Positions 8,978 to 17,993 of a DNA stretch of 59,895 nt are shown piece by piece. Origin of the DNA: Microcaldota archaeon (lineage in GTDB: Archaea > Micrarchaeota > Micrarchaeia > Micrarchaeales > CABMGC01); the NCBI GenBank assembly GCA_021801225.1, contig JAJYYF010000006.1, forward strand, positions 1 to 59,895, in the 5' to 3' direction. The notes beneath the pieces were generated by a model, which ran no database searches, was not told the DNA's origin, and saw only the letters and a list, made by a program, of their open reading frames with translations. Made by a program: the position numbers and the translations under genes. The first letter of the stretch is position 1; every line of letters starts with the position of its first letter.

Positions 8978-10078
8978 TCATAAACGTTTTCTAAGAATTG
9001 CGTTTTTAAGTATAGCCTTTGGGCTATCCATATCTCCATACTCACTTAGAAAACTTGACATACCTATGTTGTTTAATATGCGCATAGTTAATGATAAACT
9101 TTTTTCACTAGCATTAGAGTAAAAATTATTTAGTAATTTATGTACTCTCGTATCAAATACAAATTTCTTTTTATAAAGTTTTTCATACTCATTTAATGAG
9201 GTTCCTTTATTAAAGTGCTTATATATTATCTCTGAAGCAATTATAGCAGCATTTCCCCCAAAAACTATTCCTCCACCAGTCGAAGGTTTAACCTGTCCTG
9301 CAGAATCTCCAACTAAAATAACATTATTTTTTTCATCAACTATTTTTTTCCTAAGTTTCATAGGTATTATACTTGCATGCTCACTTAGCAGTGTCGCATT
9401 TTTTAATTTATTTTCAATGTTTTCACGTAAAATAAACTTTTCAAAAGCAGCTTTACTATTATATCTTCCTGGGTTAATTCCTATTCCTACCTCTAAAATT
9501 CTTTCTGAGTTAGGGCATAACCATCCGAACAAACCAGCTGAGATATTTTTATCAAAAAACAAATCAACACTTTTCGTATCTTCTAAAGTTGTTTCATACT
9601 CTGCCTTGTATGTTAATACATATGACTCAACCTTCCCCATTTTAAAATGCTTTGCAACAGTCGATATTGCACCATCTGCGCCAACCAAAATACCCTGTTC
9701 AGATAACCTTTGTATCTCATCCTCTAAAATACGTTTTCCTAATGAAATTTTAGCTCCTGCCTCTTTAGCCTCTTTAAGTAAAACCTCATTAAATTTTTCT
9801 CTATTAACGACATATGCTATTGGTTTTTTTGCTTTAATCTGCATAACACTTTTTCCAGCATGTAGCATTGCGCCATACAGTACGTTTGTTACAGACTCCT
9901 CGTAGTTTGTTCTTATTGATCTCAAACCGTTTATGGAGATTATTCCAGAAGCTGTTACTGGGATTCCTGGTTTCTTTTTTTGATCAAAAACCTCAACATC
10001 TACTCCTTTTTTAGAAAGCTCTCTAGCCAATATCAATCCAGCTGTTCCTGCTCCTATAATAAAAACTCGTTTGTTCAT
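8978..10078 (-). CDS. FAD-dependent oxidoreductase, geranylgeranyl reductase family
   Basis: About 366 residues from the ATG at 10078; an in-frame TTG six codons upstream adds only MSWFWF and is less likely. The N-terminus FIIGAGTAGLILARELSKKG is a Rossmann dinucleotide-binding motif ending in an acidic residue (VEVFD). GVLVGADGAIS-type residues lie near 145 and VILVGDSAGQVKPSTGGGI near 260, the FAD-binding GD motif of this family. Archaeal members saturate the isoprenoid chains of ether lipids or menaquinone precursors. Whether this one acts on archaeol chains cannot be told from sequence alone. Convergent with the upstream membrane protein gene and divergent from aglB. Confidence 0.88.
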   Translation of the reverse strand: MNKRVFIIGAGTAGLILARELSKKGVDVEVFDQKKKPGIPVTASGIISINGLRSIRTNYEESVTNVLYGAMLHAGKSVMQIKAKKPIAYVVNREKFNEVLLKEAKEAGAKISLGKRILEDEIQRLSEQGILVGADGAISTVAKHFKMGKVESYVLTYKAEYETTLEDTKSVDLFFDKNISAGLFGWLCPNSERILEVGIGINPGRYNSKAAFEKFILRENIENKLKNATLLSEHASIIPMKLRKKIVDEKNNVILVGDSAGQVKPSTGGGIVFGGNAAIIASEIIYKHFNKGTSLNEYEKLYKKKFVFDTRVHKLLNNFYSNASEKSLSLTMRILNNIGMSSFLSEYGDMDSPKAILKNAILRKRL

Positions 10079-10203
10079 AAACCAAAACCAAGACAAATCT
10101 TTAATAATCTTTTCTTTAAATATTTAATCTATAATTAGTCTATAATTAGTTTTATAACTTTAATAAGTTATTGGAACATTTAGGAAACTTCAATTGTGGA
10201 TAC

Positions 10204-13200
10204 ATGATAACTGCACTCATAATAGGATTTTTATCTATACTAGTGCCAGGATTCTTCTTGGCTTTGGCTCTACTTAGAAAAACAAAACTAAGCATTTTCG
10301 AGATAACAGTAATCGGTTTCATTTTTGGTCTAATCTTCCCTCCCGCAATGGTTTGGGGAGAATCGTACTTAATTCCTTATATACACGCATTTTCGTTTTC
10401 TGCAGGGCTTTACAATGCAAATGTAATACTACTTACAGTAATCGGTATAATATTAGGTATATGGGAAGGTTCATTAACAAAAGAAGATTTATCATTCAAA
10501 TTTTTATCTGGTTTTAAAAACAATCAATCAATTTCTTTAAATAAACTTTCTTTAAATAAAGAAACGAATCAAAGAATAACAGAACTAAGACAAAAAATTT
10601 CTTCATTAAATTTAGATTTAACTATAGTTCGTATGCATGAAAAAGAAGAAAGAGAACTAGAAAACAAACAACGCGAAGAAATCTCAATTTTAAAAAATAA
10701 AGGCTCCGGTTCAGAAGAGATTGAGATAGTAAATGAGTCACACAAAGAGCAATTAAAAAGATTATTAAAGGAACATGAAAGGGAAGAATCTCAATTACTT
10801 ATAAATACAGACTCTAAGGTAAACACTTCATCAAATAGTAAATCCTTCTTTAACAGCAACATGTTGATGTGGATTATACTATTACTAATAATGTTGGCAA
10901 CCTTTGCCACAAGAATATCAAATATAGGCGTTGCACCAAAGTTCTTCGAGTTCGATCCTTACTTCGATATGGTAAGCACACAGTATATACTTACTTACGG
11001 TTACCAACCTTTGTATGAGCATGCAGCATGGCCTACTTTAGTTAATGGAACTGTACACAGGATACAGCCAATAGTTCCTTACTTGGAAGCTTATTGGTAT
11101 CAGTTGGCAACAGGTAATACTCAACACCTAAGCACAACTATTTTAAGCACAGTAAGCAGCTTCTATCCTCCTATAGTTGCAGCATTACTAGTTTTTGTAA
11201 TTTTTATGTTTATTTATTATGAGTTTGGAAAGCTACCTGCATTATTTGCAGCGGCGCTTACATTCTTAATGCCTACCTTAATCTCAACATTCATAGCTGG
11301 TGAACAACTACTTGAACCATGGGGAATATTTACTTTGTTCTTCTTCTTTGCAGCTTACTTATTAGCCGTGAAGAATCCAAAAGAAAAACGTTTTGCAATA
11401 CTTGCAGGAATAGCCTTTGCTTCAACATTCTTAGGGGCTCACTACTATACGGTAGATGCAGGAATATTGGCTTTCTATATAGTCGCACAAGGATTTATAG
11501 ACGTATTTAAGAAAAAAATAACTATTGATTTCTACAAGATGAATGCTTTAGTTATTTTAGTAATAGCTATATTTTACATAATATACGCTCCATATGGTGC
11601 TTCTCTTACAAACAGAATCCCTTCAATTTTAGGAATACCTACAATAGTGGCATTCCAATTATTTGCATTAATATTAGTAGCTATCTTTGATTATATTCCA
11701 AAGTTAGCTAAGGAAAGAAAGTATATAAAAGATTTATCAATGATGACTTATTTACTTTGGTTTGCACTTATAATAGTTATTGTAATCTTGTTAATAATAT
11801 TTACTCCTTTAGGAAAACCAGTAATTGATTACTTACAACTAAGTCAAAAGTTTACAACTCCTTCATCTCCACTGTTCATGACTGTACAGGAGTATGCGCC
11901 AACAGGTTTAGGCTTTAACTTTGGTAGTAATGGCTTTGGTTCTATAGGCGCCTCTGTTTTAGGATCCCCTATATTCTTACTTTTCATACTATTAATTTTC
12001 ATTATAATCGAGTTTTACTTATTATTATTCAGAGACTCTAAAACAGCAATGCTTTCAATAGCAATAATTGTTGTTTTAACAATAGCAGGTATGAGCGAGG
12101 TTAAGTATCTACCGCATTTTGGAGTTGCGTATATACTTGCAATAGGCATAATACTAGGAGCATTCTCAATGTATTTATCTGAAAGAAAGCAAAACCAAAA
12201 CTCGTTTAATATGTTAATTTACATATTAGAAACATTATTCTTAATCTTTGCACTTGCTTCAATTTTAGCATCAATAAGCCTTATTATTGGAGCTTTAATA
12301 AGTATAATCTTAGGAGTAGTAATCTCATATCTATTAATTAAATATTATTCAAACAAAGCAATAAAGTTCATGTTATACCTCATATTAATAATAGTCCTAA
12401 TAGCAGAATCAAATTCCGTATTCCAAATACTATCGGCTTTAGGAAGCACATGCACTCAAATATTCAATTCAAATAATGTAATGGGCGCAAATCTATTCTG
12501 TAACTCTGTACCTCAGGCATGGTTATCTGCAATGTCATGGGCTTCTGCAAATGTAGGCCCTAATGGTCCTAGAATACTTTCATGGTGGGACTACGGTGAC
12601 TGGATAAACTGGTTTGGAAACAGCAATGCAGTAATAAGAGGAGATAACTCAGTTGCTTCATTTGACTATAGAGTAGCTGCAAATTATGTTCTAAGCCCTA
12701 ATGACTCTTATGGACCTGTAAAATTAGCTCAGTTAATGCAAACTACACAAACTGGGTATGTCTTATTTGATGATCAATTAGTTCCAAAATGGGGCGCCCT
12801 TGATTTCCTAGGCTGCGTATTCGTTAATGAAACAAGTCAGGCGTATGCAGTCTCACAAGGCAAACAATATGGTCTAAACTTTTTAACAGGTACCTCACAA
12901 TGTGAGATATCCCATGATCCTGTAGAGGTAAATATACCGATGAATCCTTCAGTAAATGATTACTGTAACTTCAAGAACAGTTCAGTTCAGGCTGTGCAGG
13001 TATTAATGACATTGGGAGAAAGTGTTCCTCAAGCATTAAATCTTAGCTACTGTGTTCAAACAACAGGTTCGTCTAATGGTATTTTGAGATTATACACAAT
13101 AAACGGTACTCCAACTAACATACTGATAGATCTTAACAGCTCAGACCTTACAAACGGTTATGTAAATTATGGTAGCTCAGGAACTTTCTTAAGCGCGATG

Positions 13201-13547: not shown

Positions 13548-14687
13548 GTGAAACTTATACTACTTCAACCATATTTAAATATAAAAGGCGGAGCCGAACG
13601 CGTTATATTAGAAATTGCAAAACACTACAAAGCGCCTATACTGACTTTAGAGTACAATAAAGCAACAACCTACGAAGAGTTTGAAGATATAGATGTAAGG
13701 GTCGTGGGTAAAAATATTCCATTATCTAAGTTTCTTCCATATAGAGCATCACAAGGATTAAGATATGGTTACAACTTCTACAACTTAAAGATAAAAGAAG
13801 ATTACGACGTACTAAATCCACACATATCTCCCAGTGAGTGGATACGGCATAAAAATGACAATGTTTTATGGTATTGTCATACTCCTCCAAGAGAGGTATA
13901 CGACCTATACAAAACAAGAATGGCAAATAGATCTTATAAAGAAAAGTTACTTTATTATGGGATGACAAAAGTTTACAAAACAGTTGCATCAAAAACAATA
14001 ACTAATATAGAAGAGATAGCAACAAACAGTGCTAATACTGAAAAAAGAATAAAACAATACTTCTCTAGATCTGCACATGTTATACCTCCTGGAATAAATT
14101 ATCAAATTTACCAAAATACTAGTGATAATAATTACTTTTTCTATCCTTCAAGAATTATAATCAATAAACAACAAGATTATGTTATAAGGGCATTTAAGCA
14201 GTTTTCAGAAACATCTAAAAACAAAAAATACTCATTAATACTGGCAGGAACTCTTTCAAAGGATCCTGAACATATAAAATATTTAGAAAAATTAAAGGCT
14301 CTTTCAAAAGGCTTCAATATAAAAATACTCACAAACATAAGTGATGAAAAACTACGTGAGCTATACTCAAATAGTACAGCCGTTTTATTTGCATCTAAAA
14401 ATGAGGATTATGGTTTAGTTCCTTTAGAAGCAATGGCCAGTTCAAAACCAATTATATCGATAAATGAAGGAGGTCCAAAAGAAACAATCAGAGATGGAAA
14501 AGATGGTTTTCTAGTAAACAATGAAAAAGAAATGGCAAACAAAATGTTAACATTAGTAAACAATCATTCCTTAATTGAAGAATTAGGTAAGAACGGAAGG
14601 AACAATGTAGTTAAAAATTACTCCTGGAAAAGTTTCTTTAAAAAGTTTGATTCATTACTTGTTAAAGTTAAGAACTCTACTCCTTAA
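13548..14687 (+). CDS. glycosyltransferase, GT4 family (GT-B fold)
   Basis: 379 residues starting at GTG 13548. N-terminal half: LILLQPYLNIKGGAERV, the acceptor-side glycine-rich loop. C-terminal half: FYPSRIIINKQQDYVIRAF and the nucleotide-sugar site EDYGLVPLEAMASSKPII near residue 285, with a retaining GT4-type E-x7-E pattern. No membrane segment; it would act on the cytoplasmic face, adding a sugar to a lipid-linked glycan. Position next to aglB suggests it builds the N-glycan that AglB transfers, but the sugar is unknown. Its 3' end overlaps by 11 nt the convergent TBP-like gene. Confidence 0.88.
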   Translation: MKLILLQPYLNIKGGAERVILEIAKHYKAPILTLEYNKATTYEEFEDIDVRVVGKNIPLSKFLPYRASQGLRYGYNFYNLKIKEDYDVLNPHISPSEWIRHKNDNVLWYCHTPPREVYDLYKTRMANRSYKEKLLYYGMTKVYKTVASKTITNIEEIATNSANTEKRIKQYFSRSAHVIPPGINYQIYQNTSDNNYFFYPSRIIINKQQDYVIRAFKQFSETSKNKKYSLILAGTLSKDPEHIKYLEKLKALSKGFNIKILTNISDEKLRELYSNSTAVLFASKNEDYGLVPLEAMASSKPIISINEGGPKETIRDGKDGFLVNNEKEMANKMLTLVNNHSLIEELGKNGRNNVVKNYSWKSFFKKFDSLLVKVKNSTP

Positions 14688-15000
14688 TTTCAATTACATA
14701 CTCAGAAATTATCTTTGCTGCTCTTTCCAAAACTTCCTTGATGTTTTTAGTATTGTTTGAACCTGTACATATTAACTTTCCATTTTTAAACAAAATTATT
14801 ACTGCTTTAGGTTCCTTTATTCTAAATATAGCTCCTGGGAACTGTTCTGGTTCGTAAGATACCTCTTTAACGTCTTTAGTTAGCGAAAATAAATCTATAT
14901 TCGCATGTAAATCTGCGCTAACCACTATATTCTGTATTTTAATCTGTGGATTAAGTTTTGTAATTTTATTTGACTTTTTAGGTGAGCTTGACTTTGCCAT
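14677..15000 (-). CDS. single-repeat TATA-binding protein (half TBP)
   Basis: 107 residues from ATG 15000 (another ATG at 15009 adds MRF). After a basic 18-residue tail, the sequence follows one archaeal TBP repeat end to end: IQNIVVSADL, then YEPEQFPGAIFRIKEPKAVI, then LFKNGKLICTG, then a helix. F54 and F71 correspond to the two DNA-kinking phenylalanines of a repeat and are 17 residues apart, as in canonical TBP. The match is closer to the C-terminal repeat (YEPEQFPG, ICTG). A full TBP has two such repeats in about 180 residues. No second repeat lies on either side, so it would need to dimerise or pair with another TBP. It could be a regulator or the main TBP. Confidence 0.85.
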   Translation of the reverse strand: MAKSSSPKKSNKITKLNPQIKIQNIVVSADLHANIDLFSLTKDVKEVSYEPEQFPGAIFRIKEPKAVIILFKNGKLICTGSNNTKNIKEVLERAAKIISEYVIEIKE

Positions 15001-15045
15001 AAATCTCATATTATTATAGTAGGCAAACCTTTTTAAATGCCACTA

Positions 15046-16107
15046 TCAAATTTCATCTTCTGAAGTTTTTTTATTTCTTACAACTTTCTTTAACAACTCT
15101 AATCCTCCAAATGCAAGTAATCCAACTGCTACTGCCTCTATTGCTATTGAGTCCCTTCCTGACATAATACTGCCAGATTTTTGTTGGTTTTCATATCCTG
15201 CTGGTAATATCGTATAAGTTTTATCTGTAGAAGAATTTTCTTTATATCCCGCAGGCAATATTGTGTAAGTTTTTTCTGTTGTTGTTGTAGTTGTTTGTTT
15301 TTCAACTGTGTACTCCTCTTTAGTATATTTTTTGTTTTGTACGTCATTGCCCTGAGATTTAAATGCTATTTCTCTAATATCTTTATTTTGAGTATTAGCG
15401 TTTGTATTTGAATAATTTACATTCTCTCTTACTACAGGTGCAGGTCTAACATAAGCTTCTGATGTATATGTTGGTCCTCTGTATACTGGTGCTGTAGTTG
15501 TACTTGGGTTGTATACTTGTGATACATATGTAGGTGGAGTATACACAGGTCTTGGAGATACGTATGTAGAGGGAGTATATACTGGTGTTGGTGGCACTGC
15601 TGTTTGGTAACCTCCAGCACCATACTGTGGTCCTACCGGATAAGGACTAATAAGTGGCTGTGAGTAAGTTGGTGCATAAGATTGGTAAACAGGATAACCT
15701 CCTGGACCGTACTGTGGTCCTACCGGATAAGGACTAATAAGTGGCTGTGAGTAAGTTGGTGCATAAGATTGGTAAACAGGATAACCTCCTGGACCGTACT
15801 GTGGTCCTACTGGGTAAGGACTAATAGCTGGTTGTGAGCAATAACCTCCATAATAATTACCGCCATAATAACCTTCGTTTCTTGCTATATCATAATTTAC
15901 TCCGTTAGCTAAACCTTGTACGGTTCCCTGTATTATTCCTGCTACTATAGGATTCATTCTAGCCTCAGCAGGTTTTTGTGAAGGTCTTAAAACACCTAAC
16001 AACGAAGCCGCAACTACTGCTGCTGTAACTATTGTTCTTGGTCTTTTAATTTCAATTAAATTTGAATAAGAGTTATTTTTTTCCCCATTTATTTTTTGTG
16101 TTTCCAT
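15046..16107 (-). CDS. membrane-anchored protein with Tyr/Pro/Gly-rich tandem repeats
   Basis: 353 residues of unknown function. A cytoplasmic start with KRPR is followed by a hydrophobic segment (IVTAAVVAASLLGVLRP, about 28-45). Then comes a Gly-zipper-like stretch (NPIVAGIIQGTVQGLANGV). Three copies of a 29-residue repeat containing SPYPVGPQYGPGGYPVYQSY lie at about residues 90-165. A Pro/Thr/Tyr region is next, then two copies of TYTILPAGY near 280-300. A second hydrophobic helix (SIAIEAVAVGLLAFGGLELL) precedes a basic tail. Both ends could be membrane-embedded with a repeat loop outside. I know no family for it. Confidence 0.75.
   Translation of the reverse strand: METQKINGEKNNSYSNLIEIKRPRTIVTAAVVAASLLGVLRPSQKPAEARMNPIVAGIIQGTVQGLANGVNYDIARNEGYYGGNYYGGYCSQPAISPYPVGPQYGPGGYPVYQSYAPTYSQPLISPYPVGPQYGPGGYPVYQSYAPTYSQPLISPYPVGPQYGAGGYQTAVPPTPVYTPSTYVSPRPVYTPPTYVSQVYNPSTTTAPVYRGPTYTSEAYVRPAPVVRENVNYSNTNANTQNKDIREIAFKSQGNDVQNKKYTKEEYTVEKQTTTTTTEKTYTILPAGYKENSSTDKTYTILPAGYENQQKSGSIMSGRDSIAIEAVAVGLLAFGGLELLKKVVRNKKTSEDEI
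15624..15850 (-). repeat. 87-bp tandem repeat inside a coding region
   Basis: The heptamer ACTGTGG recurs at 15624, 15711 and 15798, exactly 87 bp apart (29 codons). The first two units are almost identical at the DNA level; the third diverges near its end. It encodes the Tyr/Pro/Gly repeat of the 353-residue protein. Near-identity of DNA suggests recent duplication or ongoing homogenisation. Confidence 0.9.
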
Positions 16108-16343: not shown

Positions 16344-17993
16344 ATGGCGGAAAATCAATTAGGTGGACAACAGTACTTAATATTGCCTGAAGGAACAAGT
16401 AGGCTTATTGGTAAGGAAGCACAAAGAACAAACATAGCTGTGGGCTATGCTGTGGCTAGTATAGTAAGAACAACATTAGGTCCTAAAGGTATGGACAAAA
16501 TGTTAGTTAGCGAGCTTGGAGATATTGCAATAACAAACGATGGTGCTACAATCTTGGAAGAGATGAATGTAGAACATCCAGTAGCTAAGATAATGGTAGA
16601 GATAGCAAAAACTCAAGACAAAGAGGTAGGAGACGGAACAACAAGCGCAGTAATAGTTGCAGGAGACATGCTCAAAAATGCTGGAAACCTTCTAGATCAA
16701 GGAATTCCTCCAGCCTCAATAATAAAAGGCTATGAGATGGCTAGGGATAAGGCAATAGAGGTACTCAATAGCATGGCTGGTAATCTAGATATAGAAAATG
16801 AAGAAAAACTAGAAAGAATAGCTATGATATCTATGGGTTCTAAAAACATAGGCAGTGATTTAACTAAAAAACATTTATCAAAATTAGCAATACAAGGATT
16901 AAAGCAGGTTTCAATAAAGACTGGAAATAAAGTATCTATTGATAGAGACTTCATAAAATTAGAGAAGAAGGAAGGCGGAAGCATAGAAGATACAAACTTC
17001 ATAAATGGGGTATTGATAGATAAGGAGATAGCACACCCTGGAATGCCTAAGTTAATGAAAAATGCAGCAATAGCACTTCTTGATGTTGCTTTGGAAATAG
17101 AAAAAACAGAAACAGACGCAAGAATAGAGATAACATCTCCAGAACAGATGCAAGCATTCTTAATGCAAGAAGAAAAAATGTTAAAGGAAATGGTTGACAA
17201 AATAGCAAAAAGTAAAGCAAACGTTGTATTTGTACAAAAAGGCATAGACGATATTGCACAGCACTACTTGGCAAAAGTAGGAATAATAGCAGTAAGAAGA
17301 GTAAAAAAGAGTGACATGGAAAAGTTAGGTAAGGCAACAGGTGCAAAACTTGTAACAAGCCTCGAGGACTTAACAGAAAAAGATCTTGGCTTTGCAGGAA
17401 TGGTTGAAGAAAGAAAGATCTCTGGTGAACAAATGCTTTTCGTAGAAAAATGCAAAGATCCAAAAAGCGTAACTATTTTCATAAGAGGAGGAACAAAACA
17501 AGCTATAGATGAAGTAGAAAGAGCAATGACCGATGTAATTGGAGCATTAGCAAGTGCAATAGAATCTGGCAAGTACGTTACAGGAGGCGGAAGTATCGAG
17601 ATGGCAGTTTCGATAAAATTAAGAGACTTCGCAACTGACGTAGGCGGAAGAGAACAATTGGCAATACAAGCATTTGCAGACTCACTTGAAATAATACCAA
17701 AAACTCTTGCAGACAGTTCAGGAATGGATCCTATAGACACATTAGTCGCTTTAAGAACAAAGCATAAAAATAAAGAAGGCAGAAACTACGGAATAGATGT
17801 ATACAAAAATGCAATAGGCGATATGGAAAAATTAGGTGTCATAGAGCCATTGAAAGTAAAGATACAAGCGTTCTCCAGTGCAACAGAAGCCTCATCATCT
17901 ATATTAAGAATAGACGATATGATAAGTGCAAAGGGAAGATCTCCTGGTGGTGCAGGCGGAATGCCACAAGGAATGCCTGGAATGGGAGACTAA
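16344..17993 (+). CDS. thsA: thermosome subunit (group II chaperonin)
   Basis: 549 residues, normal length for the archaeal CCT-type chaperonin that folds proteins in a two-ring ATP-driven cage. The ATP-binding segments are [12 protein letters not shown] near residue 45, DGATIL near 65 and GDGTTS at about 96. The lid-trigger region and [13 protein letters not shown]-type nucleotide motif lie near 415. The flexible tail is Gly/Met-rich, ending GMPGMGD. Start fixed by GGTG five bases upstream. It is a single gene followed by a hairpin terminator. No second subunit is in the window, so the ring may be homomeric or use a distant paralogue. Confidence 0.97.

Follow-up and report, generated by a model that had tools for sequence, protein, structure and literature searches.

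In the window, as the whole 59,895-nucleotide stretch of archaeal DNA under analysis is called here, one short gene matches the TATA-binding protein (TBP) over a single lobe. In archaea and eukaryotes alike, TBP is regarded as having two lobes. Discussions of its origin take a one-lobe precursor as a hypothesis, and we know of no living example of the one-lobe dimer from which TBP would have arisen. The questions raised by this locus are whether the gene is an intact TBP gene, whether the genome encodes any other TBP, and in which form a single lobe might work.

The gene lies on the minus strand at 14677-15009, starts with ATG and encodes 110 amino acids; it was assigned on the basis of its open reading frame, Pfam match, conservation and dN/dS, and is called B hereafter. 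Its single complete TBP repeat takes up residues 22-104 (14698-14946, minus strand) and covers positions 1-85 of the 85 in the Pfam TBP model (PF00352), with 91 bits against a cut-off of 22.9. This is in agreement with a sequence-only reading of the locus, in which one complete TBP repeat had been recognized. B could be aligned with each half of the solved archaeal TBPs from Sulfolobus, Methanocaldococcus and Pyrococcus (E ~1e-36). The NCBIfam full-length TBP models gave at best 88.6 bits, far below their cut-offs (181-347), because only half of the model is covered. The two tandem repeats by which a TBP is recognized are not present, since the 110 residues hold one repeat and no other lies nearby. 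The basic tail described earlier was found at the N-terminus, the C-terminus being acidic. The N-terminal domain of RNase HIII (Pfam DUF3378) was rejected as the identity of B, its score of 19.7 bits being under the cut-off of 27. The AF2 monomer prediction was of low confidence (pLDDT 58.6) and was left out of the fold comparison.

In known TBP structures a pair of phenylalanines intercalates into DNA. The corresponding residues of B are Phe57 (codon 14839-14841, minus strand, context EQFPG) and Phe74 (14788-14790, minus strand, context LFKNGK). Both had been seen in the sequence-only reading, and their spacing of 17 residues stands; the numbers given there, F54 and F71, were counted from Met4 and become F57 and F74 when counted from the first ATG. 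The pair is invariant across 31 aligned relatives, so that the loss of DNA-contact residues that would have spoken against this reading was not seen among them. In the alignment, columns 35 and 52 contain 100% Phe, column 35 across all lobes. N27, V29, F57 and F74 are invariant in the relatives of B and reach 100% in B and in the genome's other one-lobe TBP gene, called A. The codons for Glu53-Pro54-Glu55 (14845-14853, minus strand) correspond, by conservation and comparison with published contacts, to the TFB-contacting glutamate pair in the stirrup of TBP C-lobes, C.L3.2 and C.L3.4 (PMC7221094). E53 and E55 are invariant in B, and the E/E pair is found in 100% of A lobes, B lobes and sole one-lobe TBPs. 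Over these three groups, the DNA columns (N5, V7, F35 and F52) and the TFB columns (E31 and E33) are kept at 97-100%. The dyad strand NIVASA, central in the normal saddle, is conserved about as well as the DNA-binding face, and this fits the need of a dimer. Residues specific to B are V8, within the dyad strand, H13 and S22. Judged by its sequence and contact residues B classifies as a TBP, and by its architecture as a non-canonical one.

B is a live gene. The dN/dS was about 0.004-0.04 where dS could be measured, indicating purifying selection, and the 78 distinct B lobes gathered from relatives were all single. A TATA-like TTTAAA (15032-15037, minus strand), whose centre lies about 26 nt before the ATG, is the probable promoter, as judged from the sequence, the relatives and the genome-wide BRE+TATA motif; most close relatives of B have the same or a similar element about 30-40 nt before the start. 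The convergent neighbour, a family 4 glycosyltransferase assigned by Pfam (GT4; 13548-14687, plus strand), overlaps B by 11 nt. The flanking genes are unrelated to TBP, as had been noted, but the neighbourhood is conserved, with GT4 adjoining B in 69 of 80 loci and thus marking the B locus. A thermosome subunit gene (16344-17993, plus strand; Pfam Cpn60_TCP1), found near B in 22 of the 80 loci, is given as context only. The locus sits apart from transcription genes. Also beside B, at 15046-16107 on the minus strand, is a gene for a repetitive protein of 353 residues (PVGPQYG...GGYPVYQSY repeats), which had no Pfam match and is present in 2 of the 80 B loci.

The genome of the window (965 kb in 31 contigs, 90.8% complete) was searched for another TBP, as the earlier reading had proposed. 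Exactly two matches were obtained, B and a second gene on contig C28 (56721-56966), which is A. A is likewise a single lobe, of 107 residues. No two-lobe TBP was found in the 31 contigs, and with two matches in the whole genome neither did a truncated frame with a second repeat nearby appear. The suggestion that B partners or competes with a full TBP fails in that no full TBP exists here, although B may be a partner of one-lobe A instead. The neighbours of A are eL21, Rpb4, DUF655, DedA and KsgA, and A shares the conserved eL21-Rpb4-DUF655-KsgA locus with the two-lobe TBPs of the clade. The genome has one TFB gene, located 8 kb from A, and both cyclin repeats are present in its product. A search for RpoB gave no match above threshold in this genome, though relatives have RpoB; this is probably an assembly gap.

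The lineage is Micrarchaeota, and the public records nearest to B come from Candidatus Micrarchaeota MAGs. Of 60 close relatives searched, 59 had TBP matches (one genome, G057, had none), and the copies were single-lobe, one to three per genome, and unlinked in all but one. Thus the single-lobe length, which had been proposed for a survey, recurs in dozens of relatives, single-contig genomes among them. The single-contig genome G034 (771,545 bp) has A as its only TBP, and three further single-contig genomes (G042, G048 and G058) likewise agree with the one-lobe state. A without B was observed in a dozen relatives from several genera, including one single-contig genome. In family f2, nearly all genomes have two or more lobes, and A and B nearly always occur together. 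In a survey of 164 genomes of the phylum with a completeness of at least 85%, single-lobe TBP frames were found in families f1, f2 and f13-f24, and two adjacent matches per frame, mostly of 190-220 residues, in f3-f12. One-lobe TBPs also occur beyond Micrarchaeota (G183, G204, G251, G260 and others); the phylum of G183 has them as a rule, and that of G251 is otherwise two-lobe. A canonical two-lobe TBP in an otherwise one-lobe genome (L131, G158:C43:2733-3251) was rejected as native, being up to 79% identical to the TBP of a distant family, and its contig is probably a contaminant. The linked exception among the close relatives, G022, carries at a contig end (L185, C39, 1-412, minus strand) an in-frame tandem of A lobes in which 98 nt of the repeat are identical. 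The contig edge interrupts this tandem, which may have arisen by a very recent re-fusion or be an artefact of assembly. Two genomes of one family (G116 and G120; L136-L140) contain three one-lobe TBP genes each; in G120, about 1.3 kb separates two of the three.

The coexistence of one-lobe and two-lobe proteins in one clade leads to the question of which form came first. In the lobe tree, the canonical N and C lobes are split from all lobes of the clade, whether N, C or single, at 100/99. Within the clade, the N lobes group with the C lobes of their own lineage (f42-like 96/90, f7/f9/f10 96/86, f4/f6/f11 96/88); the pairing is weaker for f86, and f3/f5/f12 were not resolved by this tree. The identity between the N and C lobes of one protein averages 63.0% in the clade vs 46.8% in canonical TBPs. 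Identity between the two lobes reaches 82.9% in the lineage f57 and 80.5% in f64, and the hits that rank next are for the most part one-lobe TBPs from their own phylum. The linker is 9 residues long in nearly all canonical TBPs, whereas in the clade it measures 10-14 residues and is unrelated between lineages. Finally, one-lobe taxa are deepest in the RpoB tree, where 5 changes compare with about 7 losses. Taken together with the locus that A shares with the two-lobe genes, these observations favour, and do not prove, that the clade fell to one lobe and then re-fused several times. That re-fusion took place several times is in itself fairly likely; the full course of fall and re-fusion is put forward with less confidence.

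These data have to be weighed against a history in which the two-lobe form was always present in the clade, gene conversion or shared selection maintained the similarity of its lobes, and about seven losses occurred with no re-fusion. Such a history concerns the past of the protein and not its working mechanism. It agrees with a model based on length alone and rooted in the two-lobe state, which preferred one-way loss (lnL -21.1 vs -22.4), weakly and against the lobe tree, linkers and identities. A weak signal of position, shared by lobes across two-lobe lineages (0.83 points, the best of 16 relabelings), points the same way. Moreover, AU tests kept shared N lobes at the 0.05 level (p = 0.056 and 0.10). 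The separation from the canonical lobes, the lineage-wise pairing, the high N-C identity, the one-lobe nearest relatives of f57 and f64, the dissimilar linkers and the deep one-lobe branches all argue against it, and we consider loss alone unlikely, with some appreciable weight left to it.

The promoters give indications about the form in which the lobes work. De novo search upstream of genes revealed a motif of AA, a 3-nt gap and a TATA core of 6-8 bp both in G034, which has A only, and in the genome of the window. The same BRE+TATA architecture was obtained for a two-lobe genome (G060) and a canonical one (G181). One lobe spans about half a TATA box. The full-length TATA of one-lobe genomes thus suggests that two half-sites are read and that two lobes are present at the promoter. 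The nearly perfect palindromy of the TATA core in G034 was discarded as evidence for a homodimer, since its excess (0.993) over two-lobe archaea (0.973-0.985) is too small.

On these grounds, the working saddle is with good probability made of two one-lobe chains, A-A being the core TBP and B a conserved alternative or partner; both the pairing and the DNA binding are deduced here from the sequences. In the order to which the window belongs, two chains would be joined via strand 1, which occupies the middle of the sheet in an ordinary TBP, to form a DNA-binding saddle. The A chain would pair with itself to give the core TBP, and B, as an old paralogue of A, might form A-B or B-B saddles with a use of their own. 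The two phenylalanines of each lobe would enter one half-site of the TATA box, the two glutamates for the single TFB could come from either stirrup, and BRE, read by TFB, would fix the direction. A dimer of single lobes, as put forward in the sequence-only reading, is accordingly kept as the best-supported mechanism, with the modification that A-A is a more probable core homodimer than B-B, as A is unchanged in several genera that lack B and A-A must suffice there. That such a lobe works beside a copy of itself is suggested by f57 and f64, in which lobes with more than 80% identity are fused and one-lobe relatives stand alongside. No convincing residue changes in A tracking the absence of B, a sign of A-B contact, were found. 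A mostly has IEN and B has IQN at the same place, which echoes the canonical N and C lobes and may be a hint, no more, of A-B saddles. It is also conceivable that a single lobe works with TFB as a monomer.

Alternatively, B might be no promoter factor at all, and instead compete with A, poison A dimers or bind another nucleic acid in the manner of the TBP-like domain of RNase HIII. Its dispensability in genera that retain A, its long stem (branch 0.64) with residues of its own, and its distance from transcription genes would be in line with this; the long branch and the B-only residues also mean that the partner and targets of B may differ from those of A. However, B conserves all the columns that contact DNA and TFB as well as A does, which would be needless in a poison lobe. 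Strong purifying selection, the two or more lobes in nearly all of f2 and the sub-threshold DUF3378 match likewise stand against it, and a role of this kind appears rather doubtful. Much less probable is a gene fission, with A as the old N lobe and B as the old C lobe of an obligate split pair. Two unlinked lobes in one genome and the IEN/IQN difference could be read in that way, but A and B are sister paralogues (96/94) within a clade separate from the canonical N and C lobes, and this topology, together with the A-only genomes, rules them out as split TBP halves. An artefact, with a normal TBP in the unassembled part of this incomplete 31-contig genome or a gene cut by a frameshift, has a negligible chance, as the same outcome was obtained in single-contig genomes and many independent assemblies, the one two-lobe TBP in G158 looks like a contaminant, and the 78 single B lobes, the low dN/dS and the relatives' genomes exclude assembly error or truncation of B.

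Returning to the saddle of two one-lobe chains, it can be combined with the re-fusion history into a wider and tentative account, to which we give somewhat less than an even chance. Micrarchaeota and at least one neighbouring phylum would have regained the presumed ancestral one-lobe dimer and then re-fused it at least five times by tandem duplication. In the order of the window, A-A, A-B and B-B saddles would serve one TFB.

Compared with canonical archaeal TBPs (PDB 1mp9, 2z8u and 1pcz), the proteins of the clade have the same fold by homology, the same intercalating phenylalanines and TFB-contact glutamates, BRE+TATA promoters and a TFB. They differ in having one lobe per chain instead of two covalent lobes, and in the lobe states A38, K53, N54 and Y/F19, which few or none of the compared canonical lobes show. 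The TBP paralogues of haloarchaea are full two-lobe TBPs, whereas those of the clade are half-TBPs, the pairing of which is presumed. More than one TBP gene per genome, with possible specialisation, is common to the clade and to Halobacterium (PMC2121645). The bacterial RNase HIII/DUF3378 domain shares with B a single TBP-type fold in one chain and, presumably, the binding of a nucleic-acid duplex, but B is devoid of the RNase H part and retains the TATA and TFB contacts. A TBP fold with changed lobe number or spacing is also known from the poxviral proteins VETF-l and VITF-3l, which have two or three lobes within larger chains (PMC12917281); those are viral and multi-lobe, in contrast to the cellular, single-lobe B. 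A viral origin of the one-lobe TBP was rejected, since viral contigs had no match and PHROG matches were only weak. In surveys of DPANN, TBP is listed as present and its length is unremarked. Our literature search returned no description of a one-lobe TBP as the only TBP of a cell; an earlier mention is possible, the 2013 work on the TBP-domain superfamily being outside its coverage.

A large living group with one-lobe TBP only makes the one-lobe-dimer hypothesis testable in vitro. The proteins of 90-110 residues can be synthesised, and experiments would involve just one TFB and a promoter motif that is already defined. With symmetric saddles, the origin of direction in the initiation complex could be tested cleanly, and the f57 and f64 fusions allow free and joined lobes to be compared. 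If the proposal is true, the supposed origin of TBP has been replayed in living cells.

Additional forms were observed in other genomes. Two-lobe TBPs with lobes more than 80% identical (L441 in G223 and L442 in G242) occur in a phylum where one lobe is the rule and are apparently fresh tandem duplications. G223 also encodes, on contig C8 (L454, ~9538-10695), a frame of 726 residues in which four consecutive degenerate TBP lobes precede a membrane segment and a part that appears to be extracellular; it is unlike any TBP known to us.
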